This document shows positions 2,870 to 48,287 of a DNA stretch of 64,000 bases, piece by piece (the stretch's first letter is position 1; the number at the start of each line of letters is the position of its first letter). The stretch is taken from assembly GCF_022664535.1 (NCBI RefSeq), contig NZ_JAKUJY010000004.1, forward strand, positions 1 through 64,000. Direction: 5' to 3'. The position numbers were made by a program, and so were the translations under genes. This DNA comes from Sphingobium trunci (GTDB lineage Bacteria > Pseudomonadota > Alphaproteobacteria > Sphingomonadales > Sphingomonadaceae). The notes beneath the pieces were generated by a model that was not told the DNA's origin, did not search any database, and worked only from the letters and a program-made list of their open reading frames with translations.

Positions 2870-3607
2870 ATGACTGGAAAATCATATGGCGCCTGGTCCG
2901 GATGGGGGCTGGCGGTGAGGGGATTGTGCGCGCTGCTGACGGCGGTCACGGCGCCGGCGGATGCGGCGGCGCTGCGAATCCTGCCGGTACGGATCGAGAT
3001 GGTGGCGGAAAGGCAATTCTGTGCCTTCAGCATCGCCAATGACGATGCGGCCGCGACGACGGTGCAGATCAGGGGCTTTGGCTGGCGCAAGGACAGCGCG
3101 GGCAATGACGAGCTGGATCCGGAAACCGGCCCGATGGTCAATCCGTCGATCGTCAGCATAGCCGGCGGCGAAAGCCGCCTGATCCGATGCAGCCTGCCCG
3201 CCAAGGCGGGATCGCGGGAAGAAAGCTACCGGCTTGTGATTGACGAACTGCCCACATCGGCGGCGGAGCCAGGCACGGTGCGAACCCTGTTGCGCGTCAG
3301 CATTCCCCTGTTCCGTGTCCAGTCCGGCGCATCCCCGCAACTGCGCTGGTCGCTGGGCAAGGGTGCGGACGGACCGCTACTCATGCTCGCCAATCAGGGC
3401 GACCGTCATATCCAGGCGGTGGGCGTGAATCTGCGTCTCGCGAACGGAAGCGCGCAGGCCGTGAAGCTGGATCGCGGCTTCTACCTTCTGGCTGACGGGC
3501 AGATCATGCTGCCGGTCGGACCGCTGGATGGTAGCAGCATTGCCGGAGTGGACGTGCAAACGACCCAGGGAAAGCTGGCCGCTTCCCGCGCCGGCAGCGA
3601 GCGGTGA
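2870..3607 (+). CDS. Periplasmic pilus chaperone (PapD-like, CsuC-type)
   Basis: A 245-residue protein with an N-terminal hydrophobic segment (about residues 14-33) ending in ADA, read as a signal peptide. Two immunoglobulin-like lobes of the fimbrial chaperone family follow (about 35-150 and 155-235). Its role is to bind SCPU subunits in the periplasm, complete their fold by donor-strand complementation and hand them to the usher. It lies 13 bases after the first pilin and 12 bases before the usher. Identification rests on the overall pattern and on operon context, which is diagnostic. Confidence 0.85.
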   Translation: MTGKSYGAWSGWGLAVRGLCALLTAVTAPADAAALRILPVRIEMVAERQFCAFSIANDDAAATTVQIRGFGWRKDSAGNDELDPETGPMVNPSIVSIAGGESRLIRCSLPAKAGSREESYRLVIDELPTSAAEPGTVRTLLRVSIPLFRVQSGASPQLRWSLGKGADGPLLMLANQGDRHIQAVGVNLRLANGSAQAVKLDRGFYLLADGQIMLPVGPLDGSSIAGVDVQTTQGKLAASRAGSER

Positions 3608-3619
3608 GGCCAGCGTTCG

Positions 3620-6004: not shown

Positions 6005-6477
6005 TGAAGGCTATCGGATATGGGCTGGTCGCGCTGGCCGGGATGACCATGGCCACGCCGGGCTGGGCCTGCACGCTGTGCAGTTGTTCGGCTTCGACCA
6101 CGGGCGTGAGCTTTGGCGGTTACGACCCCGGTGCCTCCAGCCCCAAGGACGGCTCCGGCACCGTCTCGTTGAGCTGCACCGGCCTCGTTTCGCTGGCCGG
6201 AACCATAGACATGGCCATGAGCCCCGGCAATTCGGGCAATGCGCTCGCCCGCAAAATGACGCAGGGTGCCGCGAGCCTGAACTATAATCTCTATACCAAC
6301 AGCAGCCGGACAACGATCTGGGGCACGGGTTCGGCAGGCACCAGCATCGTCAGCGCCACATTGACGGGCCTTTTGTCCTTCAGCCAGACCGTTCCCGTCT
6401 ATGGCCGGATTCCCGCGGGCCAATGGGTGCAGGCCGGCCCCTATGCAGACAGCGTGATCGTCACCATCACCTATTGA
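6001..6477 (+). CDS. Spore coat protein U-domain pilin, probable tip subunit
   Basis: A 158-residue secreted SCPU protein. The signal peptide ends near GWA at residue 23, followed by an unusually Cys-rich mature start (CTLCSCS). The C-terminus again ends in Tyr. The start at 6001 overlaps the usher stop and is preceded by CGGAGGG; the adjacent ATG at 6004 is an alternative. As last gene of the operon it occupies the place of the tip adhesin (CsuE) in the Csu system, but it is short for a two-domain tip protein. It overlaps the convergent PAS gene by 11 bases. Confidence 0.8.
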   Translation: MMKAIGYGLVALAGMTMATPGWACTLCSCSASTTGVSFGGYDPGASSPKDGSGTVSLSCTGLVSLAGTIDMAMSPGNSGNALARKMTQGAASLNYNLYTNSSRTTIWGTGSAGTSIVSATLTGLLSFSQTVPVYGRIPAGQWVQAGPYADSVIVTITY

Positions 6478-7384
6478 GGGACGAGGGGCTGCCTTCCGCC
6501 GCCGTGCCGATCAGGAAGACGCCCCCCACCTGTCCATCGGCCACGTGAAGCGGCGCGGCATGGAGCCAGATCGCCTTGCTTCCGGCGTCGTTGCCCACAA
6601 GCCCGGCCGCCATGCCGAACGGGGTTCCGGAGGTCAGCAGGTCTTCCATGGCGTCGCTGATCGTTGCCCGGCTCGAAGCATCGAACAGGGTGGCGAACCT
6701 GACGCCGATAATGCGGCTTTCATCAGTGCCCAGCCATCGCGCGAGCGCGGAAGAGGCATGGGTCACATTGCCCCTGATATTGAAACTGCCCCTGGCGAGG
6801 CCCGGCATGTCGTCGATGAGCGCCTCATAGGCTGCGGTCCGCGCATCATGATCGCGCAACGTTATCCGGTCGCTGATTTCATCGGACAACAAGGCGAAGC
6901 CGCCGGGGAAGGGCGTGATCCGAAAGCGGAAGACCTGGGACTTTCGGCCGGGCATGTTGAGCTCGAACTCTTCCGCGAGGCCGGTTTCGCGTACCCGGTC
7001 GAGCGCGCGCGCGATGAAATGATGCTCCTGGTCGGCCAGCAACTGAGGCAGCGGTGTTCCGCGCACTTCCTGTTCGCTCACTTCCATGCATTGGCGGGCT
7101 GCAAGATTGATACGTACCACATGGAGATTTTCGTCGGTCAGGATGACCTGCGTCGAAATCATGTCGAGCAGGATATCGAACCCGGCGGACGGATGGCTGA
7201 TGTCGGGAAGATGCCGCTGGCCCTTGGACAGGCGAAGGAACAATTCGGTCGAAATCAGCGAGAGATTGATATTGCCATGATTCATGATGTGGACGGGTTC
7301 GTTCAGCGCGTGCCGCGAATGGGCCGCGAAATGCCGAATCAGAGCCGTCGCGGTAACAATCTGGCCTGAGGGAATGTCGTCCAA
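6467..7384 (-). CDS. PAS-domain protein without output domain
   Basis: Two PAS-like sensor folds occupy the central and C-terminal parts. The first has ILTDENLHVVRIN and a PLPQLLADQE region; the second has a RGNVTHASSALARWLG motif. No histidine kinase, GGDEF, EAL or DNA-binding module follows, so it may signal through a partner. The open frame begins with an ATG at 7447, but AGGAGAGAGAGGGAG just upstream of a TTG at 7384 is a much better ribosome site, and the residues it would otherwise encode are a simple Arg/Glu run. The TTG start gives 305 residues. Its placement between a pilus operon and an adhesin suggests a role in surface attachment control. Confidence 0.7.
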   Translation of the reverse strand: MDDIPSGQIVTATALIRHFAAHSRHALNEPVHIMNHGNINLSLISTELFLRLSKGQRHLPDISHPSAGFDILLDMISTQVILTDENLHVVRINLAARQCMEVSEQEVRGTPLPQLLADQEHHFIARALDRVRETGLAEEFELNMPGRKSQVFRFRITPFPGGFALLSDEISDRITLRDHDARTAAYEALIDDMPGLARGSFNIRGNVTHASSALARWLGTDESRIIGVRFATLFDASSRATISDAMEDLLTSGTPFGMAAGLVGNDAGSKAIWLHAAPLHVADGQVGGVFLIGTAAEGSPSSLNR

Positions 7385-7720
7385 TATCCTGCGCTCCCTC
7401 TCTCTCCTGGCATGGCCGCGCGATGTTCGTAATTTACATCCGGGCATTCAGCCTTGTTGAAACGCTATCGTAACGATGATTCTCTGTCGATCCGATATTG
7501 CCAAAAAAATCCTGCTAAATCATCAAAATTGAGAGTTTTTCTGAATTGCCGGGCCGATCCGGGTGGCCATTCGCGATATGTATTTTTCGTAAAATCACGC
7601 TCCCCGGCCTTCGCACGCTTTTAGCCGCGAGCGTTGCATCCTGCTCCTGGGAGATGGAATATTCGGCTCAACCGATCACAGGAGAGGTGAGCGGATGTTC
7701 CTGGCAACAGGGGCCAGGTC

Positions 7721-9661
7721 ATGCCGTACAAAGCACCGCCAGAAATATCCTGCCATGTTCCGGCCGGACTATGGACCAGGGGGCTGATCACGGCCGCGCT
7801 GCTTGCCGGGGCCGGCCAGAGCATCGCCGCTCATGCCAATGTGGTCAGCGCCTGTTCGGGCGTCAGCCTGCCCAAATCGGTGCTGACCCAGACCATCGGG
7901 GACGTCATCACGCCCGTGCTGGCGCCCGTGGAATCGACGCTGAACTCCCTGCCGCTCGTGAATATCGATCTGGGTATCAGTTCTGCACTGAGCAACGCGG
8001 CTTCGGGCGCACCGATCAACCTCCAGGTGCTCGACATCAACGGCAATGCCGTCAACCTGCTCGCCGACCCGACCTGTGAGACCACGTCGGACAGTTTCAG
8101 CCTTCTGACGCCGAAGGGCATCTCCTTCGGCGGCAACAAGATAACGGGATTGGGCACGCCCGGTCTGGAAGCCAATGCCGGCGAACTGGACGCCATCGCC
8201 ATCGGCAATCTCGCCAATACCTCCATCGGCGCATTCAACGCGGTTGCGATCGGTTCGGGCGCATCGGTGACGCATGCCGGCAGCGTCGCGCTGGGATCGG
8301 GATCGGTCGCCAATGGGTCGACGCTCAATCTGCCCGCCTATCTCGTCGGCGGCACGGCCAGTGCGGAGGTGAATATCGGCGCGCGCCGCATCACCGGGCT
8401 GGCCGCCGGCGCCAATCCGACCGATGCCGTTAATGTCGCCCAGTTGCAGGCGGTCAACGACGCGCTGGGCACGCTGGCGGGCAATGCCGTGCAATATGAC
8501 AGTGGCGCGCGCACGCTCGTCACCTTGCAGGGGGCTTCGGGCACGCGGATCACCAATCTCAGTCCCGGGACCGTCAGCGCCACCAGCACGGACGCGATCA
8601 ATGGGTCGCAGCTTCAGGCCACGAACGATCAGGTGGCCCAGAACAGCACGGCGATCGCCCAGCTCGGCTATGATCTGGCGGTGCTGAGCGATCTGGCGGT
8701 CAAATATCAGGACAGCACGAAATCCAGCATCATCCTGGGCGGCGTGAGCGGCACCACGATCGGCAACCTGTCACCCGGCAGCGCTGGCAAGGATGCGGTG
8801 AACATATCGCAATTGACCAGTGCCTCCAACGGCGGCGGGGGCGGAGGGGGAACGTCCCAGGACGCGCTTCCCTACGACCCCGCCGTCCAGGCCTATAATG
8901 CGGCGCGCGGTGGTATCGATCAGCAGATCACCGGGGTCGCCGCCGGAAATCTGAGTGCCAGCTCGACCGATGCGGTGAACGGCGCGCAACTTTACGCCAC
9001 CAATGTGCAACTGGCCTATAATATGACCGCCATCACCGATATTCAGGAAGGGCGGGCCGGTTTCCTTCAGGTCAATAACAGTTCCGGCTATGCCAAACCC
9101 GTCGCCAGCGGAACGGATGCGATGGCCGCGGGCGCGGGCGCTGTAGCCTCCGGCGGCAACAGCATGGCTGTCGGCACGCTCGCGGAGGCGCTGGCGCCAT
9201 CGAGCGTCGCGCTTGGCTACGCATCCGTGGCCGATCGGGCGAACAGCGTATCGGTGGGCAGCGCGGGAAGCGAGCGGCAGATCACCCATGTGGCGGACGG
9301 CACGTCGGCGACGGATGCGGTCAACCTGCGCCAGCTGCAAGGCGGCATGGGACAGGCGGTGGATGCCGCCAATGCCTATACGGACATTCGGTTCAACCTG
9401 TTGAACAGTGGCCTGCGCGATCTGCGCCGCGATGCGGAGGGTGGCACGGCGGCGGCGATGGCCATGGCCGGCATCCCGCAATTTTCGGAAGCGGGGACCG
9501 GCACGCTGGGCTTCGGCATGAGCAGTTGGCAGGGTGAACATGCCATCGCCATGGGCCTGTCCAAGGTGTCGGACAATGGCCGCCTCATCGTCCGCGCGGC
9601 CGCCACCTACAACAGCCGCAATCAGGGGGGTGCCAATGCTGGTTTCGGTGTCGCATTCTAA
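7721..9661 (+). CDS. Trimeric autotransporter adhesin (YadA-like)
   Basis: A 646-residue type Vc autotransporter. A signal peptide covers about residues 1-38. YadA head repeats (AIAIG, AVAIGSGAS, SVALGSGS) lie near 160-200. Five neck motifs of the DAVNxxQL type lie near 222-250, 275-306, 345-367, 400-428 and 520-546, and a Gly-rich linker near 370-378. A second head patch (SMAVGTLA, SVALGYAS) precedes a C-terminal YadA anchor (about 560-646) ending in Phe. There is no in-frame start upstream because of a TGA at 7688. It trimerises in the outer membrane and mediates adhesion. The last 26 bases overlap the OmpA/BamE-like gene. Confidence 0.9.
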   Translation: MPYKAPPEISCHVPAGLWTRGLITAALLAGAGQSIAAHANVVSACSGVSLPKSVLTQTIGDVITPVLAPVESTLNSLPLVNIDLGISSALSNAASGAPINLQVLDINGNAVNLLADPTCETTSDSFSLLTPKGISFGGNKITGLGTPGLEANAGELDAIAIGNLANTSIGAFNAVAIGSGASVTHAGSVALGSGSVANGSTLNLPAYLVGGTASAEVNIGARRITGLAAGANPTDAVNVAQLQAVNDALGTLAGNAVQYDSGARTLVTLQGASGTRITNLSPGTVSATSTDAINGSQLQATNDQVAQNSTAIAQLGYDLAVLSDLAVKYQDSTKSSIILGGVSGTTIGNLSPGSAGKDAVNISQLTSASNGGGGGGGTSQDALPYDPAVQAYNAARGGIDQQITGVAAGNLSASSTDAVNGAQLYATNVQLAYNMTAITDIQEGRAGFLQVNNSSGYAKPVASGTDAMAAGAGAVASGGNSMAVGTLAEALAPSSVALGYASVADRANSVSVGSAGSERQITHVADGTSATDAVNLRQLQGGMGQAVDAANAYTDIRFNLLNSGLRDLRRDAEGGTAAAMAMAGIPQFSEAGTGTLGFGMSSWQGEHAIAMGLSKVSDNGRLIVRAAATYNSRNQGGANAGFGVAF

Positions 9662-10439
9662 GCGCGGCTGGTGCCTTTGCGGGCTGATGCTGGCGCTGTC
9701 GGCAATGCAGGCGCGGGCGGCCGAGCCTGTATTCCTGCCCGACATCGCGCCCGCGTCGGATTTTCCCGACCCCGCTCACGCAACCCGCCGGGAGGGCCTT
9801 TTCCTGCCCATCGAAATGCCGCGTCTGCTGACGCCGGGCATGACCAAGAAACAGGCCTATGCCTTGCTGGGCGTGCCGCATTTCCATGAGGGCCTGTTTG
9901 GTGAACGCAGGTGGAATTATATCCTCAATTTCTACACGGGATCGGGAACGGCCTACCGGATATGCCGCCTGCAACTGCGCTGGGGCCGCCATATGCGGCT
10001 GGAAGGGATGGCGTGGAGCAGCGAGGATTGCCGGGCCGCCGTCTATCCCGTACCCGAAAAGCGCGACATGCTTGTCCCGCAGCCGCCGGTCCGGACGCCG
10101 GAGGCGCCTTCGCTCACCTTCTATTTCGATTTCGACAAGGCGGATCTGAGTGAAAAGGCCTATCGGGATCTGACGGCCTTTGTCGCGGCAAACCCGGGCC
10201 CCGGCCGCAAATTGTCCATCATCGGCTTTACCGACGGGGCGGGCCCCGACGCCTATAATGACCGGCTGAGCCTCAGGCGAGCGGACATGGTGGCGAAAAG
10301 CCTGGTTGCGCTGGGCGTGGCTCTGCCCGATTTGCAGATTTCCGGTGCGGGAGAAAGATCTCCGGCTCGAGAGGCGGAAGATGGGATGAGGGAGCCCCTG
10401 AACCGGCGGGTCGTGGTGAGGGCCATGAGCGGGTCCTGA
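9636..10439 (+). CDS. OmpA-family protein with BamE-like domain (TpgA-like adhesin partner)
   Basis: A 267-residue protein. Residues 1-28 are a signal peptide ending in ARA. A SmpA/OmlA (BamE)-like segment near 60-95 reads LTPGMTKKQAYALLGVP. A C-terminal OmpA peptidoglycan-binding domain (about 158-267) contains FYFDFDKADLS, FTDGAG and the NRRVVV ending. The ATG at 9636 follows six G residues and lies 26 bases inside the adhesin gene, so translation is coupled. The same combination occurs in TpgA, which joins the Acinetobacter adhesin AtaA to peptidoglycan. By analogy this protein would anchor the upstream trimer to the cell wall. Confidence 0.82.
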   Translation: MLVSVSHSKRGWCLCGLMLALSAMQARAAEPVFLPDIAPASDFPDPAHATRREGLFLPIEMPRLLTPGMTKKQAYALLGVPHFHEGLFGERRWNYILNFYTGSGTAYRICRLQLRWGRHMRLEGMAWSSEDCRAAVYPVPEKRDMLVPQPPVRTPEAPSLTFYFDFDKADLSEKAYRDLTAFVAANPGPGRKLSIIGFTDGAGPDAYNDRLSLRRADMVAKSLVALGVALPDLQISGAGERSPAREAEDGMREPLNRRVVVRAMSGS

Positions 10440-25387: not shown

Positions 25388-26110
25388 ATGGCAGCGGGCG
25401 TGAAGGGCAGGCTTGCCGTGCGAAGCGGCGATGACGCCGACCCGATTCTGGATGCCGCCGTGCAGGTGGTCCGCGCCCATGGCATAGACGGCGCGACCAT
25501 CGATCGCATCGCCGAGGCTGCCGGATTGAGCCGCGCCACCCTCTATCGCCGCTTCAGCAGCCGGGACGCGATCATAGCCGACGTGCTGCGGCGGGAGGCG
25601 GCGCCCTATGTACGGGAAGCCAGGGCGGTATCCGAAAGCGCGGAGAGTTTTTCCGCCGGCATCATCGCCGGCTTCGTCTTCACGATCGAGGCGATGCCGC
25701 GCTATCCGATCGTCGAATCCGTCTTCGTCAGGCAATTGAGCGACAATAATGCGCGCATGCTCCAGCCCGTGTTCCGGGAACTGGTGGGCCAGGGTCTGGG
25801 CAATCTGCTGGCCGTGCGCACCGGCTGCGATCCCTTCACCGGCAGCGACCGCGACGAACTGTTCGACTGGCTCGCCCGCACCTTCCTGAACATCGCGGCG
25901 CGCGCGCCCTGGAACAGAGCCGAACTGGAACGCCATGTCGCGACCTTCGTCCTGCCGGTGCTGGATGCGCGCTATTCGCAGGTCGTTGCCGAGCGCAAGG
26001 ACGATATCCTCGTCCGGCTCGCCCAGGTCGAGGCCGCCGCCCAGGCGCTGGCCGGACAATGCGCCGAAATCCGCCGCCTGATCGGCGGCCATCACAGCCC
26101 TCAAGGATAG
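25388..26110 (+). CDS. TetR-family transcriptional regulator
   Basis: A 240-residue regulator. The helix-turn-helix is ATIDRIAEAAGLSRATLYRRFSSRD near the N-terminus, followed by a longer ligand-binding domain and a C-terminal helical tail. The frame opens at 25289, but GGAG at 25376-25379 gives 8-base spacing to the ATG at 25388; the ATG at 25382 is also possible. It sits just upstream of a cytochrome P450 gene with a 5-base gap and shares its strand, so it probably autoregulates a TetR-P450-MAPEG operon through the palindrome at 25321-25337. Confidence 0.86.
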   Translation: MAAGVKGRLAVRSGDDADPILDAAVQVVRAHGIDGATIDRIAEAAGLSRATLYRRFSSRDAIIADVLRREAAPYVREARAVSESAESFSAGIIAGFVFTIEAMPRYPIVESVFVRQLSDNNARMLQPVFRELVGQGLGNLLAVRTGCDPFTGSDRDELFDWLARTFLNIAARAPWNRAELERHVATFVLPVLDARYSQVVAERKDDILVRLAQVEAAAQALAGQCAEIRRLIGGHHSPQG

Positions 26111-26115
26111 AAATC

Positions 26116-27309
26116 ATGAATGCGATTGCCGTGCCGTCCCATGTCCCGTTCGACCGGGTGCTGGATTTCGACATGATCGCCGATGTCGCCAAGGGCGGCC
26201 TGCAGGATGCCCACCGCGCGCTGCACGACAAGGCGCCGGACGTCTTCTTCACGCCCCGCAACGGCGGCCACTGGGTCGCCACGCGCATGGCCGACATCAC
26301 CGAGATCATGACCAATCCGGAGGTGTTTTCCAGCGCCGACGCGCTGCCGCCCATGCCCTGGTACATGCCCAAGATGAAGCTGCCGCCGCAGGACATGGAC
26401 CCGCCGCAGCATATGCGTTACCGGCTGCTGCTGCTCAAATTCCTGGCCCCGCGCGAGGTCAAGAAGCTGGAAACGCGCATTCGCGCGCTGATGACCGAAC
26501 TGATCGACGCCGCGCTGGCGAAGGGATCGGTGGACTTCGTCGCCGATGTCGCCGTGCCCTTTCCCGTCAAGATCTTCATGGGCATGATGGGCATGGACAT
26601 GAGCCGCTTCCGCCAGTTCGTCGGCTGGGCGAACGCGGCGCTGGCATCGGCCAAGCCCAGGGACCGGGTGATGCCCTTCATCCGCATCAACCTCTATATG
26701 CGGTCGCTCATCAAGCAGCGGAAAAAGCATCCGGGCGACGATGTCGTCTCCATGCTGATCGCCTCGGAGGTCGAGGGCAAGAAACTGTCGGACGGCATGA
26801 TCCTGCAGATCTGCAACCTGCTGTTCCTTGCCGGGCTGGATACGGTGACGAACGGGATGACCTTCATCCTGCGCCATCTGGCGGAGCATCCCGACCAGCA
26901 GCAAAGGCTGCGCGACAATTCCGACGAGATACCGGGCGCGATCGAGGAGATGCTGCGCCGCTATGCCTTCGTCACGGTCATCCGCCGGGTGACGCGCGAC
27001 ACGGTGCTGAACGGCGCTGCGCTGCACGCGGGCGACATCATCTATGGCAGCCTGGCGGGCGCCAGCAATGACGAGCGGGTCTTTCCCGATCCCGGCACGG
27101 TCGATCTGGATCGGCCGCGCCCGTCCCATGTCGCCTTCAACACCGGGCCGCATAATTGCGCGGGCGCCAATCTGGCGCGGCTGGAGCTGAAGGTGTTTCT
27201 GGAAGAATGGCTGAGGCGCGTTCCGCCCTTCCGGCTGAAGCCTGGCCAGCATCTGGAGACGCGCGGCGGCGCGATCCTCGCGATCGAGCAGTTGCAGGTC
27301 GTCTGGTAA
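26116..27309 (+). CDS. Cytochrome P450
   Basis: A 397-residue soluble bacterial P450 monooxygenase. The I-helix motif LFLAGLDTVTNG, the K-helix ExxR (EEMLRR) and the heme-binding FNTGPHNCAGANLAR with axial Cys348 are all present. The start follows AAGGATAG at correct spacing. There is no dedicated ferredoxin or reductase beside it. The ferredoxin-fused NADPH reductase at 20467-22071 is one candidate partner in the window. It would insert an oxygen into a hydrophobic substrate, consistent with the surrounding SDR and acyl-CoA genes. The substrate is unknown. Confidence 0.93.
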   Translation: MNAIAVPSHVPFDRVLDFDMIADVAKGGLQDAHRALHDKAPDVFFTPRNGGHWVATRMADITEIMTNPEVFSSADALPPMPWYMPKMKLPPQDMDPPQHMRYRLLLLKFLAPREVKKLETRIRALMTELIDAALAKGSVDFVADVAVPFPVKIFMGMMGMDMSRFRQFVGWANAALASAKPRDRVMPFIRINLYMRSLIKQRKKHPGDDVVSMLIASEVEGKKLSDGMILQICNLLFLAGLDTVTNGMTFILRHLAEHPDQQQRLRDNSDEIPGAIEEMLRRYAFVTVIRRVTRDTVLNGAALHAGDIIYGSLAGASNDERVFPDPGTVDLDRPRPSHVAFNTGPHNCAGANLARLELKVFLEEWLRRVPPFRLKPGQHLETRGGAILAIEQLQVVW

Positions 27310-27315
27310 AGGGGA

Positions 27316-27759
27316 ATGGCGGTGGTGGCGACGCAGGAGATTGTGAAGCCGGTCGCTGTGCTGGCGGCCTGGACCATGGTGATGCTGGTCTGGCTCTATG
27401 TCAGCCGCACCGCCGCCCGCGACCAGATCAAGGTCGATCCGCGCGACATGGTGGGCGGGACGAGCTGGGACGTGGACCGCATGCTGTCGGGCAAGGCGAA
27501 CTGGGCCGCGCATAATTACAATCATCTGCACGAGGCACCGACCGTCTTCTATGCCGTCGCGCTGCTGCTGGCCCTGATGGGGCAGGGCAACGGGATCGCT
27601 GCGGCGCTGGCCTGGGCCTATGTCGCGCTGCGCATCGTCCATTCGGTCTGGCAGGCGACCGTCAATCGCATCCTTGTGCGGCTGGCGCTGTTCGGCCTGT
27701 CGTCGCTGGTGCTGATGGCGCTGACGCTGCTGGCGGTGAAGGCGGCGTTCGGTTTCTGA
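27316..27759 (+). CDS. MAPEG-family membrane protein
   Basis: A 147-residue integral membrane protein with about four hydrophobic segments, starting near residues 10-29, 78-95, 97-112 and 120-143. The MAPEG signature region HNYNHLHEAPTVFYAVALLL is clear. Eukaryotic MAPEG members are membrane glutathione transferases or eicosanoid enzymes; bacterial ones are largely uncharacterised. It follows the P450 by 6 bases and may handle reactive P450 products. A paralog is at 33858-34313. Translation begins right after AAAGGGGA. Confidence 0.85.
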   Translation: MAVVATQEIVKPVAVLAAWTMVMLVWLYVSRTAARDQIKVDPRDMVGGTSWDVDRMLSGKANWAAHNYNHLHEAPTVFYAVALLLALMGQGNGIAAALAWAYVALRIVHSVWQATVNRILVRLALFGLSSLVLMALTLLAVKAAFGF

Positions 27760-33857: not shown

Positions 33858-34313
33858 TCAGCCATAACGGAGCGCGAAGTGAAGGACGTGGGCCGCCATC
33901 AGGGCAAGCGTGACGGACGACAGAAAGAATAATGTGAATCGGACGTAGATGGTATTCACGAACGACTGCCAGATCGAATGAAGGATCCGCAGGCCGACAT
34001 AGATCCAGGCCAGCCGCACATCCCATGCCCAGGGGCCGATGAGAATCAGCGCGATGGCAATAGCGTAGAAGATCGTCGGCTGTTCGAACAGGTGATTATA
34101 GTTCTGGCCCGGCCACATATATTCCGGCCTGATGCGTGCCTGGTAGAAATCGCCCTGCATTCCGGCGGGCAACTGGTCGGGCGTCACGCCCGCCTGAGCC
34201 ATGCCGCGCGAGCGGGCGATCGTCATCCAGATCATCATGACCAGGGTCCACAACACCAGCACCGCGAGCGGCGCCAGAAGGTGGATCTGTTCAGGCTTGA
34301 GGTCCGTTCCCAT
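33858..34313 (-). CDS. MAPEG-family membrane protein
   Basis: A 151-residue integral membrane protein with about four hydrophobic segments. The signature GQNYNHLFEQPTIFYAIAIAL aligns with that of the 27316-27759 protein, showing paralogy. The ATG at 34313 follows GAGGAGAGAT; a longer frame to 34343 is unlikely. It is divergent from the amidohydrolase gene and heads a minus-strand group with a crotonase and an SDR. The biochemical role of bacterial MAPEG proteins is mostly open. Confidence 0.84.
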   Translation of the reverse strand: MGTDLKPEQIHLLAPLAVLVLWTLVMMIWMTIARSRGMAQAGVTPDQLPAGMQGDFYQARIRPEYMWPGQNYNHLFEQPTIFYAIAIALILIGPWAWDVRLAWIYVGLRILHSIWQSFVNTIYVRFTLFFLSSVTLALMAAHVLHFALRYG

Positions 34314-34448
34314 ATCTCTCCTCTTTCCCGCCATCGGCAGCATGGGGGCGGATGAGTTCGTCTCCGCCCCTTCCTACCAGACCATATTCCCGGGCGGACT
34401 CATTCCGGCATTTGCCTTTGTGCAGGATCATCAATACCCGATGTCCTG

Positions 34449-39739: not shown

Positions 39740-39775
39740 CGGGAGCGCCGCCCACGTCCGCCACTTCCCGTCAGT
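39735..39775. terminator. Bidirectional terminator hairpin, 10-bp perfect stem
   Basis: ACTGACGGGA (39735-39744) pairs exactly with TCCCGTCAGT (39766-39775). It spans the stops of the convergent GntR and Mcd-like genes and would end the seven-gene acyl-CoA operon. The 21-base loop is long and no U tract is seen. Confidence 0.55.
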
Positions 39776-41408
39776 TGCGTCCGGCCAGCAATCCGCGCGC
39801 GATCACCTGCGCCTGGATTTCCGCCGCGCCCTCGAACACGTTGAGGATGCGGGCGTCGCACAGCACGCGGCTGATCTCGCTTTCCAGCGCATAGCCGTTG
39901 CCGCCGTGGATCTGCAGCGCATTGTCGGCATTGGTCCAGGCGACGCGCGCGGCGAGCAGCTTCGCCATGCCCGCCTCCACGTCGCAGCGGCGGCCCTTGT
40001 CCTTCTCGCGCGCGGCGAAATAGGCGAGCTCGCGCGCGGCGATGGTTTCGACCACCATCATGGCGAGCTTGTCGGAGACGCGCGGGAAATCGGCGATGGG
40101 CTTGCCGAATTGCAGGCGTTCGGTGCCATAGGCGAGACCCAGTTCGAAGGCGCGCCAGGCGACGCCGACAGCGCGCGCGGCGGTCTGGATGCGTGCGCCC
40201 TCGAAGGTCTTCATAAGCTGGCGGAAGCCTTCGCCGTCCTGTCCGCCCAGTAGCGCGTCGGCGGGCGCGGCGAAATTGTCGAACATCAGCTCATATTCGC
40301 GCATGCCGCGATAGCCCAGCACCTCGATCTCGCCGCCCGACATGCCTTCCGCCGGGAAGGGATCGGCGTCCGTGCCGCGCGGCTTGGGCGCGAGGAACAT
40401 GGAAAGGCCGGCATTGCCCGGACCACCGGTGCGCGCCAGCAGCGTCATCAGGTCGGATCGCGAGGCATGGGTGATCCATGTCTTCGCGCCCGAAATCCGC
40501 CAGTCGCCATCGCCATCGCGCACGGCTCGGGTGGCGAGATTGGCAAGGTCGGAGCCGTTGGATGGCTCGGTGAAGACGGCGGTGGGCAACACCTCGCCCG
40601 ATGCGATGCGGGGCAGCCATTGCGTCTTCTGCTCCGGCGTTCCGGCAAGGCCGATCAACTCGCCCGCAATTTCCGATCGGGTGCCGAGCGATCCCGCGCC
40701 GATCCAGCCGCGCGACAATTCCTCCGTCACGACGCACATTTCGAGCTTGCCGAGACCAAGGCCGCCAAACTCCGGCGCGATGCACACGCCGAAGGTGCCA
40801 AGGTCGGCGAGTTCAGCGATCAGTGCGTCCGGGATCAGCGCATTGTCGAGGTGCCAGCGATGGGCGAAGGGCGTGATCTTCTCGGCGGTGAAGCGGCGGA
40901 ACTGATCGCGGATCGCGTCGATCGTGCCATCGCCCGTCGCTTCGGAAATATGCGCGCCCTCGCGGATGTGGCGCAGCAGCGCGGCGCGGGGAGCCGGGTC
41001 GTCGGCCTTGGCGATGAAAGCGGCGATGGCGGGATCGGCGGCGAGATCGGCGGCGGCGGACGCAAGGCCGAGTTGCGCGGGGCGCACGAACTCATTGGGG
41101 CTGATCGGCAGGCCGCCCACTATCTGCGCGGCATATTCGCCGAAGGCGAGGTCGACGATGGTGGCTTCGGCCGTTCCATAATCGCCCTGCGCGGCGAGGT
41201 TGTCGGCCCAGGCGCCCAGCGCCTCCAGCGCGGCGATGGTGGTGGCGATCCAGGCAAGGCCATGGGCGGCGCGCTGGTCCGCGTCCAGCTTGCGCGGGTC
41301 GACCTTGCCGTCGGTGGCGACGCGGGCGGCAAGGCTCGCCTTCGCCGCTTCGCCGAACCGCGCCAGCGCGGTGAGCGCGCCTTTGATCTCGTCCTTCTGC
41401 CCCGTCAT
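39771..41408 (-). CDS. Acyl-CoA dehydrogenase, (2S)-methylsuccinyl-CoA dehydrogenase (Mcd)-like
   Basis: A 545-residue flavoprotein, about 150 residues longer than ordinary acyl-CoA dehydrogenases. The extra N-terminal helical domain and total length match methylsuccinyl-CoA dehydrogenase. The core has [47 protein letters not shown] and a C-terminal [18 protein letters not shown], a pattern I recall from Mcd of the ethylmalonyl-CoA pathway. It would oxidise methylsuccinyl-CoA to mesaconyl-C1-CoA. Its start overlaps the Mct-like gene stop (ATGA). No ccr, ecm or mcl gene is seen in the window, so it may serve a catabolic route. Substrate identity is inferred. Confidence 0.82.
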
Positions 41409-42619
41409 GCCCCTGCCACGATCCCCTTGTCGAAAAGCCGTCCGATCTCGCCCGATCCCAGACCGAGCGCGTCCGCCAATATTTCCTCGCTATGTTCGCC
41501 GAGCCGCGATGCGCGCACCGGCGCCAGCCGTTCTTCACCGGGCAGCGTCGCGATCGCGCCCGGCACCGGATAGCGTGCGCCGCTGACCTGCTCAATCTCC
41601 GAAAAGAGCGGGTTGGCCGTCACCATCGCCGGGTCGCGCACCGCTTCGTGCATCGCCAGATAAGGCCCCCAGCAGCAGCCATTGGCGTCGAATTCGCGCG
41701 CCAGATCGTCCGCGTCACGCAGCGCCACCGCAGCTTCGACCAGCGGGAACAGCGCGTCGCGATGCTGGAAGCGCACACCCTCGTCCGTGGCGAAGCTGAC
41801 GCCGCGCGATGCTTCGATTCCGGCCACCGCTTCGCTGATGCCCAGAACCTTGACCAGCCCCGTCCACTGGCGCGGGGTGATCGCCATCACCATCAGCCGC
41901 TTGCCGTCCGCGGTGCGGAAGTCGCGGCCGAAGGCGCCGAACACGTCGTTGCCATAGCGCGCCCGGTCGCCGCCATGCAGCGTCTCGGCCAGCTGGCCCA
42001 GATTGGCGATGGTGGCGATGCCGACATCGGCGAGCGGAATGCGCACCTCCTGCCCCTTGCCCGTCGCCCGGCGATGCTGAAGCGCGGCCAGCGTCGCGAA
42101 GGCGGCATAGCCGCCGGTCAGCAGATCCCAGGCGGGCAGCACATGGTTGACCGGCTGATCGCCGAGGGTCGCCGGACCCGTGATCTGTGGGATGCCAAGC
42201 GCCGAGTTGACGGTATAGTCGAGAGCGGGGCCGCCATCCGCCTGCCCCATGACGCGGGTCAGGATCAGGTCGGGCCGCCGCGCCGACAGCTTCTCCCACG
42301 ACAGGAAGCCGCTCACCGGGAAATTGGTGAGGAAAATGCCCGCGTCGTCACCCGGCGCCGTCGCCAGCGCGGCCAGCAGTTCGCGCCCTTCCGCGCTGCC
42401 CAGGTCGAGCGCGACGGACTTCTTGCCCTTGTTCAGCCCCTCCCAGTAGAAGCTGGCGTCATTGTCCGCCTTGGGCCAGCGGCGATAGTCCGGGCCGCCG
42501 CCGATCTGGTCGACGCGGATGACCTCCGCACCCATCTGCGCGAGGTAAAGACCGGCGCTCGGACAGGCGACGAAGGAGGATGCCTCCACGACACGCAGGG
42601 GCGAGAGCAGCGAATACAT
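41405..42619 (-). CDS. Class III CoA transferase, 2-methylfumaryl-CoA isomerase (Mct)-like
   Basis: A 404-residue CaiB/BaiF-family protein. The likely catalytic Asp165 is in [13 protein letters not shown]. Segments [38 protein letters not shown] and [12 protein letters not shown] match what I recall of mesaconyl-CoA C1-C4 CoA transferase from the 3-hydroxypropionate bicycle, an intramolecular transferase making 3-methylfumaryl-CoA. Length also fits (about 400). Alternatives are an alpha-methylacyl-CoA racemase or an ordinary CoA transferase. The start follows GAGGAATTCC. It is translationally coupled to the Mcd-like dehydrogenase, whose product would be its substrate. Confidence 0.78.
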
Positions 42620-42633
42620 GGAATTCCTCTATC

Positions 42634-43830
42634 TCAGCCCTGCGCCGCGAAATCGCGCAGCATCTGCTTGGCGATGACGAGCTGCTGGATCTGCGTCGTG
42701 CCTTCATAGATGCGATAGACGCGGGCGTCGCGGAACAGCCGTTCGGCCTCATATTCCGCCAGATAGCCGGCACCGCCATGGATCTGTACCACCCGGTCGA
42801 CCACCCGGCCGCAGGCTTCGGTCGCGAACATCTTGAAGGCAGCGGCCTCCAGGCTGGAACGGCCGCGCTCGCTGCGGGCGCAGGCGTCCCACATCATGCA
42901 TTCCGCGGCATAAAGCTCGGTCTTCGAATCCGCCAGCATCGCCTGGATGAGCTGGAAATTGGCGATCGGTTCACCGAACGCCTTGCGCTCCGTGGCGTAG
43001 CGCAGCCCGGTTTCGAGCGCACGCTCGGCAAGGCCCAGCGCGCCCGCGCCCACGGAGAGGCGACCCGGATCGAGCGCCTTCATCGCGGCGGCGAAGCCCT
43101 TGCCCTCGACCTCGCCCAGCAGGTTGCGCGCGGGGATGCGGACATCCTCCATGATGACGTCGGCGATCAGCGCGCCGCGCTGGCCCATTTTCGCGTCGGG
43201 CGTGCCGATGCTGATGCCGGGGGTCTTCATGTCGACCAGAAAGGCGCTGATATGGGCATTGCCCGGCAGATTCTCCGCCGATGTGCGCGCCATGATGAGG
43301 GCGATGCCCGCGATCGGCGCATTGGTGATGTAGCGCTTCGTGCCATTGAGCACATAATCGTCGCCGTCCCGCACCGCGCGGGTCTTGAGGCCCGCCGAGT
43401 CCGATCCGCTGTCGGGTTCGGTGAGGCCGAAACTGGCGATCTCGCCGCCGCAGAGGCGCGTCAGCCACTCCTGCTTCTGCGCGTCCGTTCCGGCGGTCTT
43501 GAGCGCGGTCGTCACCATGCCGGTGCCGATCGCCATGGTCGCGCGGAAGGCGGGGGCGGCACGACCCAGTTCGCGAATGACGCGGATATATTGGGTGAGG
43601 CTGAGGTCGGCGCCCCCATAGGCTTCGGGCGTCGTCACGCTGAACAGGCCAAGATCGCGCATTTCCGCGATGATCTCGGCCGGCACGCGATTATCCTCGA
43701 TGACGCGCGGCTCGGCCGGGATCAGCCGGTCGCGCACGAAGCGGCGGAGCTGGTCGAGGAAAGACTCGAACAGCTCCGCGTCCATGCCGCTGCCGGTCAC
43801 CGGCCGGGTCGGCGCGGTGACTTCAAGCAT
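42634..43830 (-). CDS. Acyl-CoA dehydrogenase
   Basis: A 398-residue FAD enzyme of short/medium-chain type. The FAD/substrate motif FGLTEPDSGSDSAGLKT, a KRYITNAP segment and a C-terminal catalytic-type Glu in RIYEGTTQIQQLVIAKQML are present. The ATG at 43830 overlaps the thiolase stop by 8 bases; an ATG at 43785 is an alternative, and the frame continues to 43902 without a better start. It lies fifth in the operon and is the natural candidate for the alpha,beta-desaturation step before the MaoC hydratase. Confidence 0.9.
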   Translation of the reverse strand: MLEVTAPTRPVTGSGMDAELFESFLDQLRRFVRDRLIPAEPRVIEDNRVPAEIIAEMRDLGLFSVTTPEAYGGADLSLTQYIRVIRELGRAAPAFRATMAIGTGMVTTALKTAGTDAQKQEWLTRLCGGEIASFGLTEPDSGSDSAGLKTRAVRDGDDYVLNGTKRYITNAPIAGIALIMARTSAENLPGNAHISAFLVDMKTPGISIGTPDAKMGQRGALIADVIMEDVRIPARNLLGEVEGKGFAAAMKALDPGRLSVGAGALGLAERALETGLRYATERKAFGEPIANFQLIQAMLADSKTELYAAECMMWDACARSERGRSSLEAAAFKMFATEACGRVVDRVVQIHGGAGYLAEYEAERLFRDARVYRIYEGTTQIQQLVIAKQMLRDFAAQG

Positions 43831-45031
43831 CGGCCAGGCCGACGATGGCGATTGCGGACACATTCTGGCTCGGCATGCCGCCCAGATTGTGGCTGAGGGC
43901 AAGGCTGGGCGGGGTCTGGCGCTGCCGGGCGCCCGCGCGGCCCAGGAGCTGGAGGTAATTTTCGTAGATCATCCTCAGGCCCGACGCGCCGATCGGATGG
44001 CCGAAGCATTTGAGGCCGCCGTCGATCTGACAGGGCACCTGCCCGTCCGCATCGAAGAAGCCGTTCAGCACGTCCTTCCATGCCTCGCCTTCCTTGGAGA
44101 GGTAGAGATCCTCCATCGTCACCAGTTCGGTGATGGAGAAGCAGTCATGCACCTCGGTCAGGCTGATCTGGTTGCGGGGATCGGTGACGCCCGCCTCCTT
44201 ATAGGCCTTTTGCGCGGCGACGCGGGTGGTGTGGAAATAGCTGCCGTTCCAGCCGCCGCCCTGCTGCATTTCCCAGCCGTTCGAAGAGGCGATCTGGAGC
44301 GCCTTGACCGTCACCAGATCCTTCTTGCCCAGGCTCCGGGCGATTTCCGGCGTGGTGACGATGGCGCAGGCCGCGCCGTCCGACACGCCGCAGCAATCGA
44401 ACAGGCCGAGCGGTTCCGCGATCATCGGCGCGTTCAGCACCGTGTCGAGGTCGATCGCCTTTTGCAGATGCGCCTTGGGATTCTTCGCGCCATTGGCATG
44501 GCTCTTGACCGAGACATGGGCCATGGCGCGCTTGAGGTCATCCTTGCTGACGCCGTGGGTCGCGCGATAGGCCGAGGCGAGCTGGGCGAAATTGCCCGGC
44601 GCGGAGCCGGTGACGCCGATCATGTCGGATGTCGTGCCGCGCGAACGCACGGGCAGGCCGCCATAGCCGGTGTCCTTCAGCTTCTCGACACCCAGCGCCA
44701 GCGCGATGTCCGCCGCGCCCGAGGCCACGGCATAGACCGCGCCGCGGAAGCTTTCGGTGCCGCTGGCGCAATAATTCTCGACCTTCGTCACGCCGCAATT
44801 GTTGAGGCGCAGCGCGACGGCGAGCGGAATGCCCGACGGGCCGATATTGACCGCGTCGAACGCGACGCCCAGCCAGGCGGCGTCGATCTGCGAGGTGTCG
44901 ATGCCCGCATCGGCCACCGCTTCCTCATAGGCCTCGACCATCAACTGGTCGGCGTCCTTGTCCCAGCGCTCGCCGAACTTCGCGCATCCCATGCCGAGGA
45001 TGGCGACCTTGTCCCTGATGCCGCTTGCCAT
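43823..45031 (-). CDS. SCP2/lipid-transfer-type thiolase
   Basis: A 402-residue thiolase-fold enzyme. Nucleophile Cys88 lies in VENYCASGTES, and His is in KCFGHPIGASG. The C-terminal active loop reads ALSHNLGGMPS, so the second Cys of classical thiolases is missing, as usual in SCPx-type thiolases. The start follows GGAGACAAGAC. It adjoins the HMG-CoA-synthase-fold/DUF35 gene with a 32-base gap. Such thiolases typically work with a DUF35 protein. The expected role is thiolytic or aldol-type release of acetyl- or propionyl-CoA. Confidence 0.88.
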   Translation of the reverse strand: MASGIRDKVAILGMGCAKFGERWDKDADQLMVEAYEEAVADAGIDTSQIDAAWLGVAFDAVNIGPSGIPLAVALRLNNCGVTKVENYCASGTESFRGAVYAVASGAADIALALGVEKLKDTGYGGLPVRSRGTTSDMIGVTGSAPGNFAQLASAYRATHGVSKDDLKRAMAHVSVKSHANGAKNPKAHLQKAIDLDTVLNAPMIAEPLGLFDCCGVSDGAACAIVTTPEIARSLGKKDLVTVKALQIASSNGWEMQQGGGWNGSYFHTTRVAAQKAYKEAGVTDPRNQISLTEVHDCFSITELVTMEDLYLSKEGEAWKDVLNGFFDADGQVPCQIDGGLKCFGHPIGASGLRMIYENYLQLLGRAGARQRQTPPSLALSHNLGGMPSQNVSAIAIVGLADA

Positions 45032-45063: not shown

Positions 45064-46518
45064 TCAGCCGACCGGCACGGCCTTCCAGAAATATTTGGTG
45101 AAATCGCGCCGCTCATCGACGGCCTTGATGCGGAACATCATCATCATCTCCGCGCCGACCTCCACCTCTTCGGGCGAGCAGTCCGCGAATTCCGCGATCA
45201 TGCGTCCGCCGCCGTCAAAGTCGATCATACCATAATAGCTGGGCGGCGCGGGCGAATAGGTCAAGGCGTCGGCGGTATAGGTGACGACCCGCGCCTTCCT
45301 GTCCGCCAGCGGATAATCCTCCTGCGTGTGATAGGCATGGTCGTTGGGATTGACCGAAATATCGCTCCTGGGGAACTGCACCGTCCCGGTCTTGGTGCAG
45401 CGGCCGCCGACAAGGCCGAGCACCGTCTTGCGGTTGCGCCACAGCGTCGTGCCGGGCTGCTTCTCGTCATTCTCGGCACGCATCCCCTTGTCGAGGGCGA
45501 GATTGCCGCGATGGAACAGCCAGCGGGCGTAATTCTCGTCCTTGACGCCGCGCGCCAGCGATCCCTTGACGCCGCGCCGGGCGGGGAGGGTGGCGGCCTT
45601 GCCGGTCGCCTCGAACAGCAGCACATCGACACCCTGGCCGAAGCCGGTGAGCAGGATCTTCTCGCCCGCCTGCGCCTGTTCCAGCGCCGCGACGAGGAGG
45701 AGGATGGGGTGGGCGACGCCGCTGTCGCCAAGGCTGGCCGCCAGCGTGTCGGCCACGGCCTCCGCCTTGATGCCCGCCTTCTTCGCGACGCCGTCGGCCA
45801 CGCCGCGCAGCGTGATCGGCATGATGAAGCGGTCGATCTCGCCCGCCGCGACGCCCAGCACGGCCAGCGCGTCCTTCACTGCCTTCACCGTCATGCCGGT
45901 ATAGCCTTCGTCCCTGATCCAGCGGCTTTCCCAGCTATAGTCGAAATCCTGGCCGTTGCTGCGATAATGATCGACGAAATCGATTGTCGTCGAATGGCTG
46001 CCCAGGAAACGTGCGACGACATCGCCCTGACCGATCAACAGACCGGCGGCGGCATCGCCCTGCACCATCTCGCCTTCCGAAGCGGGCCTGGACAGGCGCA
46101 TTTCGGACGCGATGGCGAGATGCGGCGCGGCCCCGCCCTTTGCGGCGGCGAGCGCCTGGATAAGCTGCGAGGTCGCGGCGCGCAGGCTGCCGGTCGCGTC
46201 GAGCGCGGCGGTGCCGTCCTCCAGCACCAGTGCCTCCTTGACGACGCCCGCGTTCAGCCGGTCGGTGAAGGGCAGGGTGGTCGAGGCGAGGCTGACCGTG
46301 CCGATGCTGGCGCGATCCACCTGCGTCAGCGCGTCGCGTCCGGCCTCCACCGCCATGGTGATGGCGTCCTCGTCCCAGTTGGCGATGGCGCGCTCGCCCT
46401 TGGCAAGGCCGCCCAGTCCTCCCGCGAACCATTTGTTGGTCGCATGGATGACGCTGCGCTGGAGCCGCTTGCGCGGGACATAGGCTCCAAACCCCAATAT
46501 GCCGGTCTCAGCGGTCAT
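45064..46518 (-). CDS. HMG-CoA synthase-fold protein fused to DUF35 OB domain, active residues replaced
   Basis: A 484-residue protein. Residues 1-330 follow the HMG-CoA synthase/KAS III fold (ILGFGAYVPRKRL at the start). Residues about 370-484 are an OB-fold DUF35 domain with a reduced zinc ribbon (GGRCTKTGTVQFPRS; one Cys of the first pair replaced by Thr). By my alignment with bacterial HMG-CoA synthase, Glu79 corresponds to Ser79/Thr80, Cys111 to Ser111/Leu112 and His233 to Met233, so synthase chemistry is improbable. The start overlaps the MaoC gene stop (ATGA). It may form a complex with the adjacent thiolase, like the archaeal thiolase/HMGCS/DUF35 assembly. Confidence 0.83.
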   Translation of the reverse strand: MTAETGILGFGAYVPRKRLQRSVIHATNKWFAGGLGGLAKGERAIANWDEDAITMAVEAGRDALTQVDRASIGTVSLASTTLPFTDRLNAGVVKEALVLEDGTAALDATGSLRAATSQLIQALAAAKGGAAPHLAIASEMRLSRPASEGEMVQGDAAAGLLIGQGDVVARFLGSHSTTIDFVDHYRSNGQDFDYSWESRWIRDEGYTGMTVKAVKDALAVLGVAAGEIDRFIMPITLRGVADGVAKKAGIKAEAVADTLAASLGDSGVAHPILLLVAALEQAQAGEKILLTGFGQGVDVLLFEATGKAATLPARRGVKGSLARGVKDENYARWLFHRGNLALDKGMRAENDEKQPGTTLWRNRKTVLGLVGGRCTKTGTVQFPRSDISVNPNDHAYHTQEDYPLADRKARVVTYTADALTYSPAPPSYYGMIDFDGGGRMIAEFADCSPEEVEVGAEMMMMFRIKAVDERRDFTKYFWKAVPVG

Positions 46519-47354
46519 AGATACTCCACATAGCCATTGTTGAGGACCACCTTGTCGCGCTCGACGACGCGGCAGCGGAAGGCCGCCTTGCCCGGGCCTT
46601 CGCGCCACAGGGCGGTTTCGATGGTTTCGCCCGGATAGACTGGGGCGGAAAAGCGGGCGTCGATGCGGCGGATGCGCGCCGGATCATTGCCGGTCAGCAG
46701 CGCCAGCAGCGCCCGGCCCGCCACGCCATAGGTGGCAAGGCCATGCAGGATCGGCCTTTCGAAGCCCGCGCCTGTCGCCACCGCCGGATCGGCGTGCAGC
46801 GGGTTCATGTCGCCCGAGGCAAGCCGGTAGAGCAGCGCCTGATCGTCGCGTGTGGGAATGGCCAGCACGGCGTCTGGCGCGCGATCGGGCACCGGATAAG
46901 GCGCGGGCTGTTGCCCCTCCGACCCGCCATGGCCGCCATCGCCGCGCAGATAATTGGTGTTGCGCACCGTCGCGATGTGGGTGCCGTCCTCATGGCTGAT
47001 CTCGCGCGTCTGGATCACCATCGCGCCCTTGTCCGCGCCCTTGTCGAAGATCGGGCCGAACTTCGTGCGGCCGATCAACTCGCCCGTCAGCGGCAGGGGC
47101 GCGTGGAGGATGAGGCTGGTTTCGACATGCAGCATCTTTTCCCAGGTGACGCCCAGCGCCGGATCGCGCCAGACGAAGCCGGGATAGGCCATCACCACCG
47201 CCATGGTCGGCAGCACCTTCAACCCGTCCTCATAGACAAAGGGCAATTCAGTTGCGCCCACGCCCATCGCGTAGAGCATCACCTTGAATGGGTTGATGCT
47301 CTGCCGGCTTTCGATCGCGGGCAGGTCGATCAGCTTCCGGGGGTCGAAGGCCAC
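46515..47354 (-). CDS. MaoC-family enoyl-CoA hydratase 2 (HSD17B4-type)
   Basis: A 279-residue double-hotdog hydratase adding water to 2-enoyl-CoA with R stereochemistry. The hydratase-2 signature GDMNPLHADP followed by GFERPILHGLATYG lies near residues 184-215, with the catalytic Asp and His present. The N-terminal hotdog carries the substrate pocket. It lies 12 bases after an HSD17B4-type SDR, so the pair reproduces the two activities of peroxisomal multifunctional enzyme 2. Its stop overlaps the start of the HMG-CoA synthase-like gene. Confidence 0.92.
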   Translation of the reverse strand: MAFDPRKLIDLPAIESRQSINPFKVMLYAMGVGATELPFVYEDGLKVLPTMAVVMAYPGFVWRDPALGVTWEKMLHVETSLILHAPLPLTGELIGRTKFGPIFDKGADKGAMVIQTREISHEDGTHIATVRNTNYLRGDGGHGGSEGQQPAPYPVPDRAPDAVLAIPTRDDQALLYRLASGDMNPLHADPAVATGAGFERPILHGLATYGVAGRALLALLTGNDPARIRRIDARFSAPVYPGETIETALWREGPGKAAFRCRVVERDKVVLNNGYVEYL

Positions 47355-47366
47355 CTCTTCTTCGCC

Positions 47367-48287
47367 TCAGACCGGATCGTAGGGGAAGATGTCGGAGGAC
47401 CGGGCCAGCGGCGTGAAAGCATGTTCCATCGCGGGAATGAGGTCGGACACGATGCTTTCGGGCGTCCAGCCATTCGAACGCTGCATCGTCTTGACCGGGC
47501 GGTTCTTCGAAAAGACGAACACCTCATTCTTGCGCACGCCGAACGTCTGGCCGGTGACATGCTTCGCCCCGTCGGAAAGCAGGGCGGCGACCATCGGCGC
47601 GATCTTTTCGGTGGTCATGGTCTTGGCGCGTTCGATCCGCTGCTCTTCCTCCGGGTTGGATGCCGGTATAGTCGCGACCAGGCGGCTCCAGGCGAAGGGC
47701 GCGATGCAGTTGGAGCGGACGCCGAACCGTTCCATGTCGAGCGCGATCGAATTGGACAGGCCGAAAATGCCCATCTTCGCCGCGGAATAATTGGCCTGCC
47801 CGAAATTGCCGATCAGCCCCGAAGTGGAGGTGAAATGGACATAGGAGCCGCCATTCTGGTCCTTGAAATAAGGCGCCGCCGCCTTGGCGACATAGAAGGA
47901 ACCATTGAGGTGGACGTCGACGACCTGCTTCCAGTCCTCGATGCTCATCTTGTGGAAGATGCGGTCGCGCAGGATGCCCGCATTGTTGACGACACCGTGG
48001 ATGCCGCCGAAATTCCTGACCGCATCCTCGATGATCGAGGTCGCGCCCAGCGGATCGGCGACGCTGGCGCCGTTCACCACTGCCCGGCCGCCTTCGGCGC
48101 GAATCTGCGAAACCACTTCCTCGGCGGGGCCAGCGTCTGCGCCTTCGCCTTCGGCCGATGCGCCCAGATCGTTGACGACCACCGCCGCGCCCTGACGGGC
48201 GCAGAGCAGCGCGATGTCGCGGCCGATGCCGCGGCCCGCGCCGGTCACGGCGACCACTTTTCCGTCCAGCCGCGCCGACTCGCTCAT
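47367..48287 (-). CDS. 3-hydroxyacyl-CoA dehydrogenase-type SDR (HSD17B4-like)
   Basis: A 306-residue SDR of the multifunctional-enzyme-2 type. TGAGRGIG lies near residues 16-23, the VVVNDLG segment with Asp favours NAD, NNAGILRDR is characteristic of this group, and the active site is YSAAK. A C-terminal extension (about 250-306) exceeds the classical length and is usual here. The start follows GGACGGGAAAGGC. It is the first gene of a seven-gene minus-strand acyl-CoA operon and would oxidise the 3-hydroxyacyl-CoA made by the MaoC enzyme. Confidence 0.92.
   Translation of the reverse strand: MSESARLDGKVVAVTGAGRGIGRDIALLCARQGAAVVVNDLGASAEGEGADAGPAEEVVSQIRAEGGRAVVNGASVADPLGATSIIEDAVRNFGGIHGVVNNAGILRDRIFHKMSIEDWKQVVDVHLNGSFYVAKAAAPYFKDQNGGSYVHFTSTSGLIGNFGQANYSAAKMGIFGLSNSIALDMERFGVRSNCIAPFAWSRLVATIPASNPEEEQRIERAKTMTTEKIAPMVAALLSDGAKHVTGQTFGVRKNEVFVFSKNRPVKTMQRSNGWTPESIVSDLIPAMEHAFTPLARSSDIFPYDPV

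Follow-up and report, generated by a model that had tools for sequence, protein, structure and literature searches.

A fused HMG-CoA-synthase-like/DUF35 protein without a catalytic triad beside an SCP2-type thiolase in Sphingobium trunci: a probable non-catalytic thiolase subunit

Described Systems

The direct precedent for the locus considered here is PhlACB, an acyltransferase of P. protegens. PhlA lacks the key Cys and Glu and is judged to have no direct part in acyl transfer; only the residues of PhlC act, but all three subunits are needed for function (PMC6392133). PhlACB (5m3k, 5mg5) and CsATase (9skh) combine an HMG-CoA synthase (HMGCS)-like part without Glu and Cys, a DUF35 part and a thiolase with an active Cys88, an arrangement further characterized in PhlACB-type enzymes by an (A2C2)2B4 assembly and CoA-free acyl transfer. 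In PhlACB, which serves antibiotic biosynthesis, the A and B parts are not fused. The same three folds can be found in the archaeal HMGCS/thiolase complex (6esq, 6et9; PMC6392133, PMC12329534), which is biosynthetic, is built from separate subunits and has a synthase that keeps its Glu/Cys/His triad in our alignment. MucABC of Streptococcus macacae (9vbo, 9vbt) likewise has a synthase-like subunit, a DUF35 subunit and a subunit matching the window's thiolase, all separate; it is encoded in acylated tetramic acid gene clusters and its role is called unknown in PMC9112991.

Regarding catabolic systems, BbsAB, Ltp2-ChsH2, and Sal-Shy associate a thiolase-fold enzyme with a DUF35 domain, and the portions of PMC12329534 used here describe no synthase-fold partner for them. 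The same portions list complexes in which DUF35 is bound to its thiolase, with zinc coordinated by four Cys, or by Cys3His1 in Shy. Fusions of DUF35 to members of the thiolase superfamily are mentioned in general terms in PMC2954200, and a literature search found no published work on the fused catabolic form. The association of a dead synthase and DUF35 with an active thiolase is already known from PhlACB, and the protein considered here would be a fused, catabolic version of it.

We analyzed such a fused protein in a 64,000-nucleotide stretch of Sphingobium trunci DNA, hereafter the window (Table 1). In the window the PhlA- and PhlB-like parts are joined in one polypeptide rather than provided as separate subunits, so that an inert synthase-fold part, a DUF35 part and an active-site-bearing thiolase are encoded together by two genes. 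An earlier sequence-only reading had taken the archaeal complex as the comparison and missed PhlA; the archaeal complex gives the highest Z score for both halves of the fusion.

Table 1. Features of the fusion locus in the window.
Feature	Position	Strand	Description	Basis
Acyl-CoA dehydrogenase	39771..41408	-	545 aa	
CaiB-family protein	41405..42619	-	nearest model 2-methylfumaryl-CoA isomerase, 408 bits vs cut-off 725	
Acyl-CoA dehydrogenase	42634..43785	-		start inferred from homologue starts
SCP2-type thiolase	43823..45031	-	partner; catalytic C88, H295-D-C297, H345 intact	NCBIfam NF004810, structure matches
HMGCS-like/DUF35 fusion protein	45064..46518	-	484 aa	
DUF35 domain	45067..45447	-	zinc-ribbon + OB fold, residues 358-484	Pfam, fold comparison
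Linker	45448..45492	-	residues 343-357, low model confidence	pLDDT, conservation
HMG-CoA-synthase-fold domain	45493..46518	-	residues 1-342, without Glu/Cys/His	fold, profile match to PhlA and 6esq_I
MaoC-type hydratase	46515..47354	-	MFE-2 hydratase-2 N-terminal domain	
SDR dehydrogenase	47367..48287	-		

Architecture of the Fusion Protein

The ATG of the fusion gene (46518..46516) overlaps the stop codon of the MaoC gene (ATGA), and its own stop codon (45066..45064) is separated by 32 bases from the downstream thiolase gene, which has an AGGAG site. The N-terminal part has the HMG-CoA-synthase/KAS III fold. The AlphaFold2 model of the whole protein, built from 50 rows, has a pLDDT of 90.2 and a pTM of 0.92, and in this predicted model residues 4-342 are closest to the archaeal HMGCS 6et9_I (VIA-align: Z 43.9, 331 residues aligned, rmsd 2.1), followed by PhlA-type chains (Z 41.0-42.0) and MucABC (38.5). 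The PhlA-type chains, slightly below the archaeal HMGCS by fold, are the best matches by sequence, with profile scores of 185 and 176 bits vs 158. The fusion shares the fold of archaeal-type HMG-CoA synthases and scores below their cut-offs (149.5 vs 244 for NF003274; 98.5 vs 353.35 for TIGR00748).

The C-terminal part is a DUF35 OB-fold domain (PF01796, OB_ChsH2_C; 35.6 bits vs a cut-off of 27.1), while zf-ChsH2 (PF12172) stays under its cut-off (19.2 vs 23.2). Modelled alone (pLDDT 80.5), this half is closest to 6esq_F (Z 14.1, rmsd 3.1, 125 aligned), then to MucABC and PhlB-type chains (Z 12.8-13.0) and to Sal-Shy, Ltp2-ChsH2, Trf, and BbsA (Z 11.2-11.9); rows less than 1 Z unit apart are treated as ties. 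For each half, the closest chains of known structure, by sequence and by fold, belong to three-part complexes, namely PhlACB-type, archaeal HMGCS/thiolase and MucABC.

In the linker region pLDDT falls to 64 for residues 341-350 and to 49 for residues 351-360. Conservation over residues 341-360 is ordinary (0.65, rank 229 of 465 windows of residues), and G345, R347, A348, E349, and D351 are conserved in at least 95% of 95 rows; the linker may occupy the place of the PhlB N-terminal tail. Model confidence is also low at residues 181-200, where conservation reaches 0.73 against 0.63 in the rest of the protein (rank 49 of 465); as an interface signal this is weak.

Loss of the Catalytic Triad

Catalytic positions were assigned from profile alignments to 6esq and 1tvz together with a joint alignment including control synthases. 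This joint alignment shows Glu, Cys, and His in 6esq, in 1tvz from S. aureus and in the proteobacterial synthases L111, L112, and L114, and Cys and His in four FabH-like rows. In the fusion the three positions are held by T80, L112, and P234, where PhlA has C/G/Q and MucABC C/E/Q, and none of the 20 fused rows of the joint alignment has Glu, Cys, or His in its catalytic place. The sequence-only reading had seen all three residues as replaced, which holds in an alignment that recovers the triad of real synthases. Its assignments need adjustment: of the pairs proposed for the Glu and Cys positions, T80 and L112 are the equivalents and S79 and S111 are not, and the residue at the His position is P234 instead of M233, neither being His. 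Ser111 as the Cys equivalent is ruled out by the profile alignments, which place L112 there.

The replacements persist among homologues. In 95 fused rows, the window included, the Glu position is T92 V2 A1, the Cys position Q58 L28 R5 M4 and the His position P79 A12 S3 G1. Nine rows obtained by sampling 398 genomes of the phylum, and 14 taken from plasmid records (among them Rhodococcus, M. avium, Streptomyces and two Haloarcula), bring the total to 118 rows, with no Glu, no Cys (one gap) and a single His (L118). Since 80 of the 95 loci were found via the motif DEDx[IVL]TMA and are the best 80 of at least 574 confirmed relatives, the tallies lean to near kin and the conservation of that motif is partly built in; a few rows are near-identical, L004 and L044 being identical. 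The tallies across 95 and 118 fused rows indicate that the replacement is not chance, and at the level of sequence the loss of the triad is confirmed and stronger than first claimed.

Zinc Site of the DUF35 Half

The window protein has no four-Cys zinc ribbon. The zinc-ligand positions 374/377/388/393 read C-T-S-D, so that three of the four Cys are gone (T377, S388, D393) and only C374 is left, where the sequence-only reading had seen the loss of at least one; PhlB, in contrast, keeps Cys4 (PMC6392133). All four Cys can be found in 49 of the 95 rows, the first only in 44 and none in two, with no row showing two or three; in one plasmid-record row (L123) a count of four was settled by eye. In the 46 zinc-less rows the second Cys is replaced by Thr (44) or Ser (2), the third mostly by Ser (33), and the fourth mostly by Asp (27) or Asn (6). 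A single loss of the site is not favored, as a quick tree has two changes, with C-T-S-D or C-T-S-N commonest in both groups (23/40 and 4/6), though the topology test falls just short of rejecting one clade formally (p-AU 0.051, on 91 rows, the long-branch rows L012-L015 left out). Further zinc-less rows lie outside that tree (L104-L106, L108, L109, L118, and L126). Zinc loss is not peculiar to the fusion, since one standalone DUF35 of the window's genome (L146, 1038-1608) lacks the Cys that five others keep. According to PMC12329534, the substrate cleft of Sal-Shy is shaped by the zinc knuckle, and by analogy loss of the knuckle may reshape the thiolase pocket.

The Partner Thiolase

The neighboring thiolase scores 683 bits with NF004810 (cut-off 403) and matches 6esq_A and BbsB (7pxp_C). 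Its Cys88 had been read as intact, and so it is, together with H295-D-C297 and GH345P. Among readable rows, Cys88 is kept in 89/89, His295-Asp-Cys297 in 87/87 and Gly-His345-Pro in 86/86, and 13 more thiolases beside plasmid-record fusions keep all the catalytic residues. Compared with the window proteins, the thiolases average about 76% identity and the fusions 55%. A stop is flagged in two of the thiolase matches, L155 and L170, whose open frames are 441 and 403 aa.

A thiolase was located at 89 of the 95 loci, the window included. It lies directly downstream at 88 (gap about -17 to 189 bp) and about 1.8 kb away at L086. At the remaining loci, the contig ends after the first 24 to 71 thiolase residues (L053, L071, L075) or inside the fusion (L087), or no thiolase is nearby and one is carried on another contig of the genome (L002 and L058, 86% and 72% identity). 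In the 55 loci longer than 15 kb the thiolase is always on the same strand. Among phylum-sample fusions, seven of nine adjoin the thiolase, and in the other two (G568, G438) it is on another contig, which at G568 a contig break could explain, the thiolase lying at a contig end. Counting these, four genomes hold the thiolase apart from the fusion (G272, G568, G438, G672). In G272 the fusion and a FadE homologue are on one contig (L168, 9016-11629) and the thiolase on another (L167, 9031-10236), and the roughly 8 kb around each contain no further operon gene among those tested.

In the window's order, taken as Sphingomonadales on the basis of its closest named relatives, the fusion was found in 15 of 296 genomes and the thiolase above cut-off in the identical 15 (Fisher p 1.6e-25, relatedness ignored), and three further genomes have a weaker thiolase match and no fusion. 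Between fusion and thiolase, pairwise distances are correlated (r 0.88, 89 sequences), as shared descent would also produce.

Distribution and Origin

The fused form is sporadic (10 of 398 genomes in the phylum sample, where the eight remaining matches are single-domain proteins, against the 15 of the order). An origin confined to sphingomonads is refuted by the presence of triad-less fused forms in other proteobacteria, actinobacteria, and haloarchaea. A split form can be found in an alphaproteobacterium, a member of the window's class (L110), where thiolase, triad-less synthase and DUF35 are consecutive genes on one strand. The joint tree gives no supported joint clades for the fused groups and PhlA, so it establishes no single origin of the fusion or of the triad loss. 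The fusion/thiolase pair is distributed widely yet sporadically, often amid acyl-CoA catabolic genes.

Gene Context

The window order SDR, MaoC, fusion, thiolase, FadE, CaiB, FadE is repeated in S. paeninsulae; Variovorax shares it up to CaiB. SDR, a MaoC protein with an MFE-2-type N-terminal domain and an SCP2-type thiolase are what we take to be an R-specific beta-oxidation set. Orthologues (at least 40% identity, same strand) of SDR, MaoC, and CaiB occur in only 23, 19, and 16 of the 55 loci longer than 15 kb, so that the window's pathway is not general to the family. Within 9 kb, open reading frames of the acyl-CoA dehydrogenase cluster occur at 41/81 loci and of the SDR cluster at 47/81, contig ends cutting many. 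CaiB orthologues stand beside 18 of 80 fetched loci, every one with a zinc-less fusion. In M. avium and two of three Rhodococcus records (the exception being DK180) the pair comes after genes for AMP-ligase and ring-hydroxylating dioxygenase, and in two Haloarcula records, one in a phenylacetate region, the thiolase is upstream. In such varied catabolic settings the pair behaves as a portable module.

The ligase and dioxygenase genes preceding the pair, and the sequence matches to PhlA-type chains, would suit a complex acylating or deacylating a carbon of an aromatic or dearomatized substrate, as in PhlACB or in IpfDE, which PMC9195938 names as the thiolase of ibuprofen breakdown and which is likened here by description. 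We regard this reading as unlikely for the pair, because the window operon contains FadE, MaoC, and SDR genes with no ring dioxygenase adjoining, and these genes also flank the pair in S. paeninsulae and Variovorax. A steroid pathway for the window is not supported either, as steroid-linked NCBIfam models matched below cut-off only (IpdE2 77 vs 450; EchA19 188 vs 400; steroid 3-ketoacyl-CoA thiolase 237.5 vs 515).

Six standalone DUF35 matches were observed in the genome besides the fusion (C34:64005, 69078, 107605, and 146515; C18:32338; C35:18017), four of them sharing a contig with the window. Five have a thiolase match no more than 0.4 kb away, whereas for C34:64005 the nearest is at about 5 kb. 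This clustering suggests a catabolic hub. Elsewhere in the window, a gene run at 2870-10439 resembles, by reading only, a chaperone-usher pilus cluster, and a P450-like gene (26059-27309; no NCBIfam match at 1e-60) adjoins a small membrane (MAPEG-like) gene (27316-27759), a second small MAPEG-like gene lying at 33858-34343; these gene labels were assigned by eye.

Proposed Role of the Fusion

Most likely, the fusion is no enzyme itself but serves an acyl-degrading enzyme as a scaffold or pocket subunit. More specifically, we consider it probable that it is the obligate non-catalytic subunit of a multi-component thiolase. The synthase-fold half, having lost the triad and retained the fold, would be an inert second lobe; the DUF35 half would bridge it in cis to the adjacent thiolase, which would provide the chemistry via Cys88, His345, and Cys297. 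For the window, the substrate would be a bulky or branched acyl-CoA, with the complex carrying out the thiolytic last step of the beta-oxidation set formed by FadE, the MaoC hydratase, SDR and the thiolase. The sequence-only reading had proposed a dead synthase domain serving its thiolase as scaffold or substrate shuttle; the partner role is well supported by the triad loss, the invariant thiolase residues, the shared 15/296 genomes and the PhlACB precedent, while we infer the physical complex, the CoA holder, the substrate and any shuttling. Among the observations that count against this explanation, DUF35-thiolase pairs without a synthase half exist (BbsAB and Ltp2-ChsH2; PMC12329534), and in the window's genome all but one of the six standalone DUF35 genes are near a thiolase match.

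Also set against an inert lobe is the conservation in or near the old pocket of T80 (92/95), S111 (S84/T9 of 95), E150, E197, and R199 (95/95). These residues could serve a synthase-fold half that is still enzymatic, e.g., as a hydrolase or decarboxylase acting on the thiolase substrate or product. This is very unlikely, given that the nucleophile position drifts, that the His position is mostly Pro, that E150 and R199 align with archaeal HMGCS residues too and may be structural, and that PhlA itself is judged to take no direct part in acyl transfer. Least probable of all is that fusion and thiolase share a pathway without binding, the fusion being a free CoA-binding or regulatory protein, as their separation in four genomes might suggest, against which stand the binding of thiolase by DUF35 in described complexes, the DUF35 half being nearest, by about 1 Z unit, to the bridging DUF35 of three-part complexes, and the correlated distances of the two proteins, with shared descent as another source.

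Returning to the non-catalytic subunit, a broader and tentative reading, which we hold somewhat less probable than its opposite, is that the pair represents a widespread class of catabolic thiolases with an obligate fused subunit, in which the dead synthase pocket would form the half of the thiolase active site that holds CoA or substrate. The zinc knuckle would then have been lost repeatedly, mostly to C-T-S-D/N on each occasion, reshaping the pocket for different substrates.

Public records name these proteins "OB-fold domain-containing protein", "3-oxoacyl-ACP synthase III C-terminal domain-containing protein", "hypothetical protein" or "hydroxymethylglutaryl-CoA synthase", the last of which is probably wrong as to function. 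With a pseudo-enzyme subunit linked to a single thiolase, it can be tested what a dead synthase domain adds, be it assembly, CoA binding or pocket shape, and the fused form, as a two-gene system, is a simpler test object than PhlACB.
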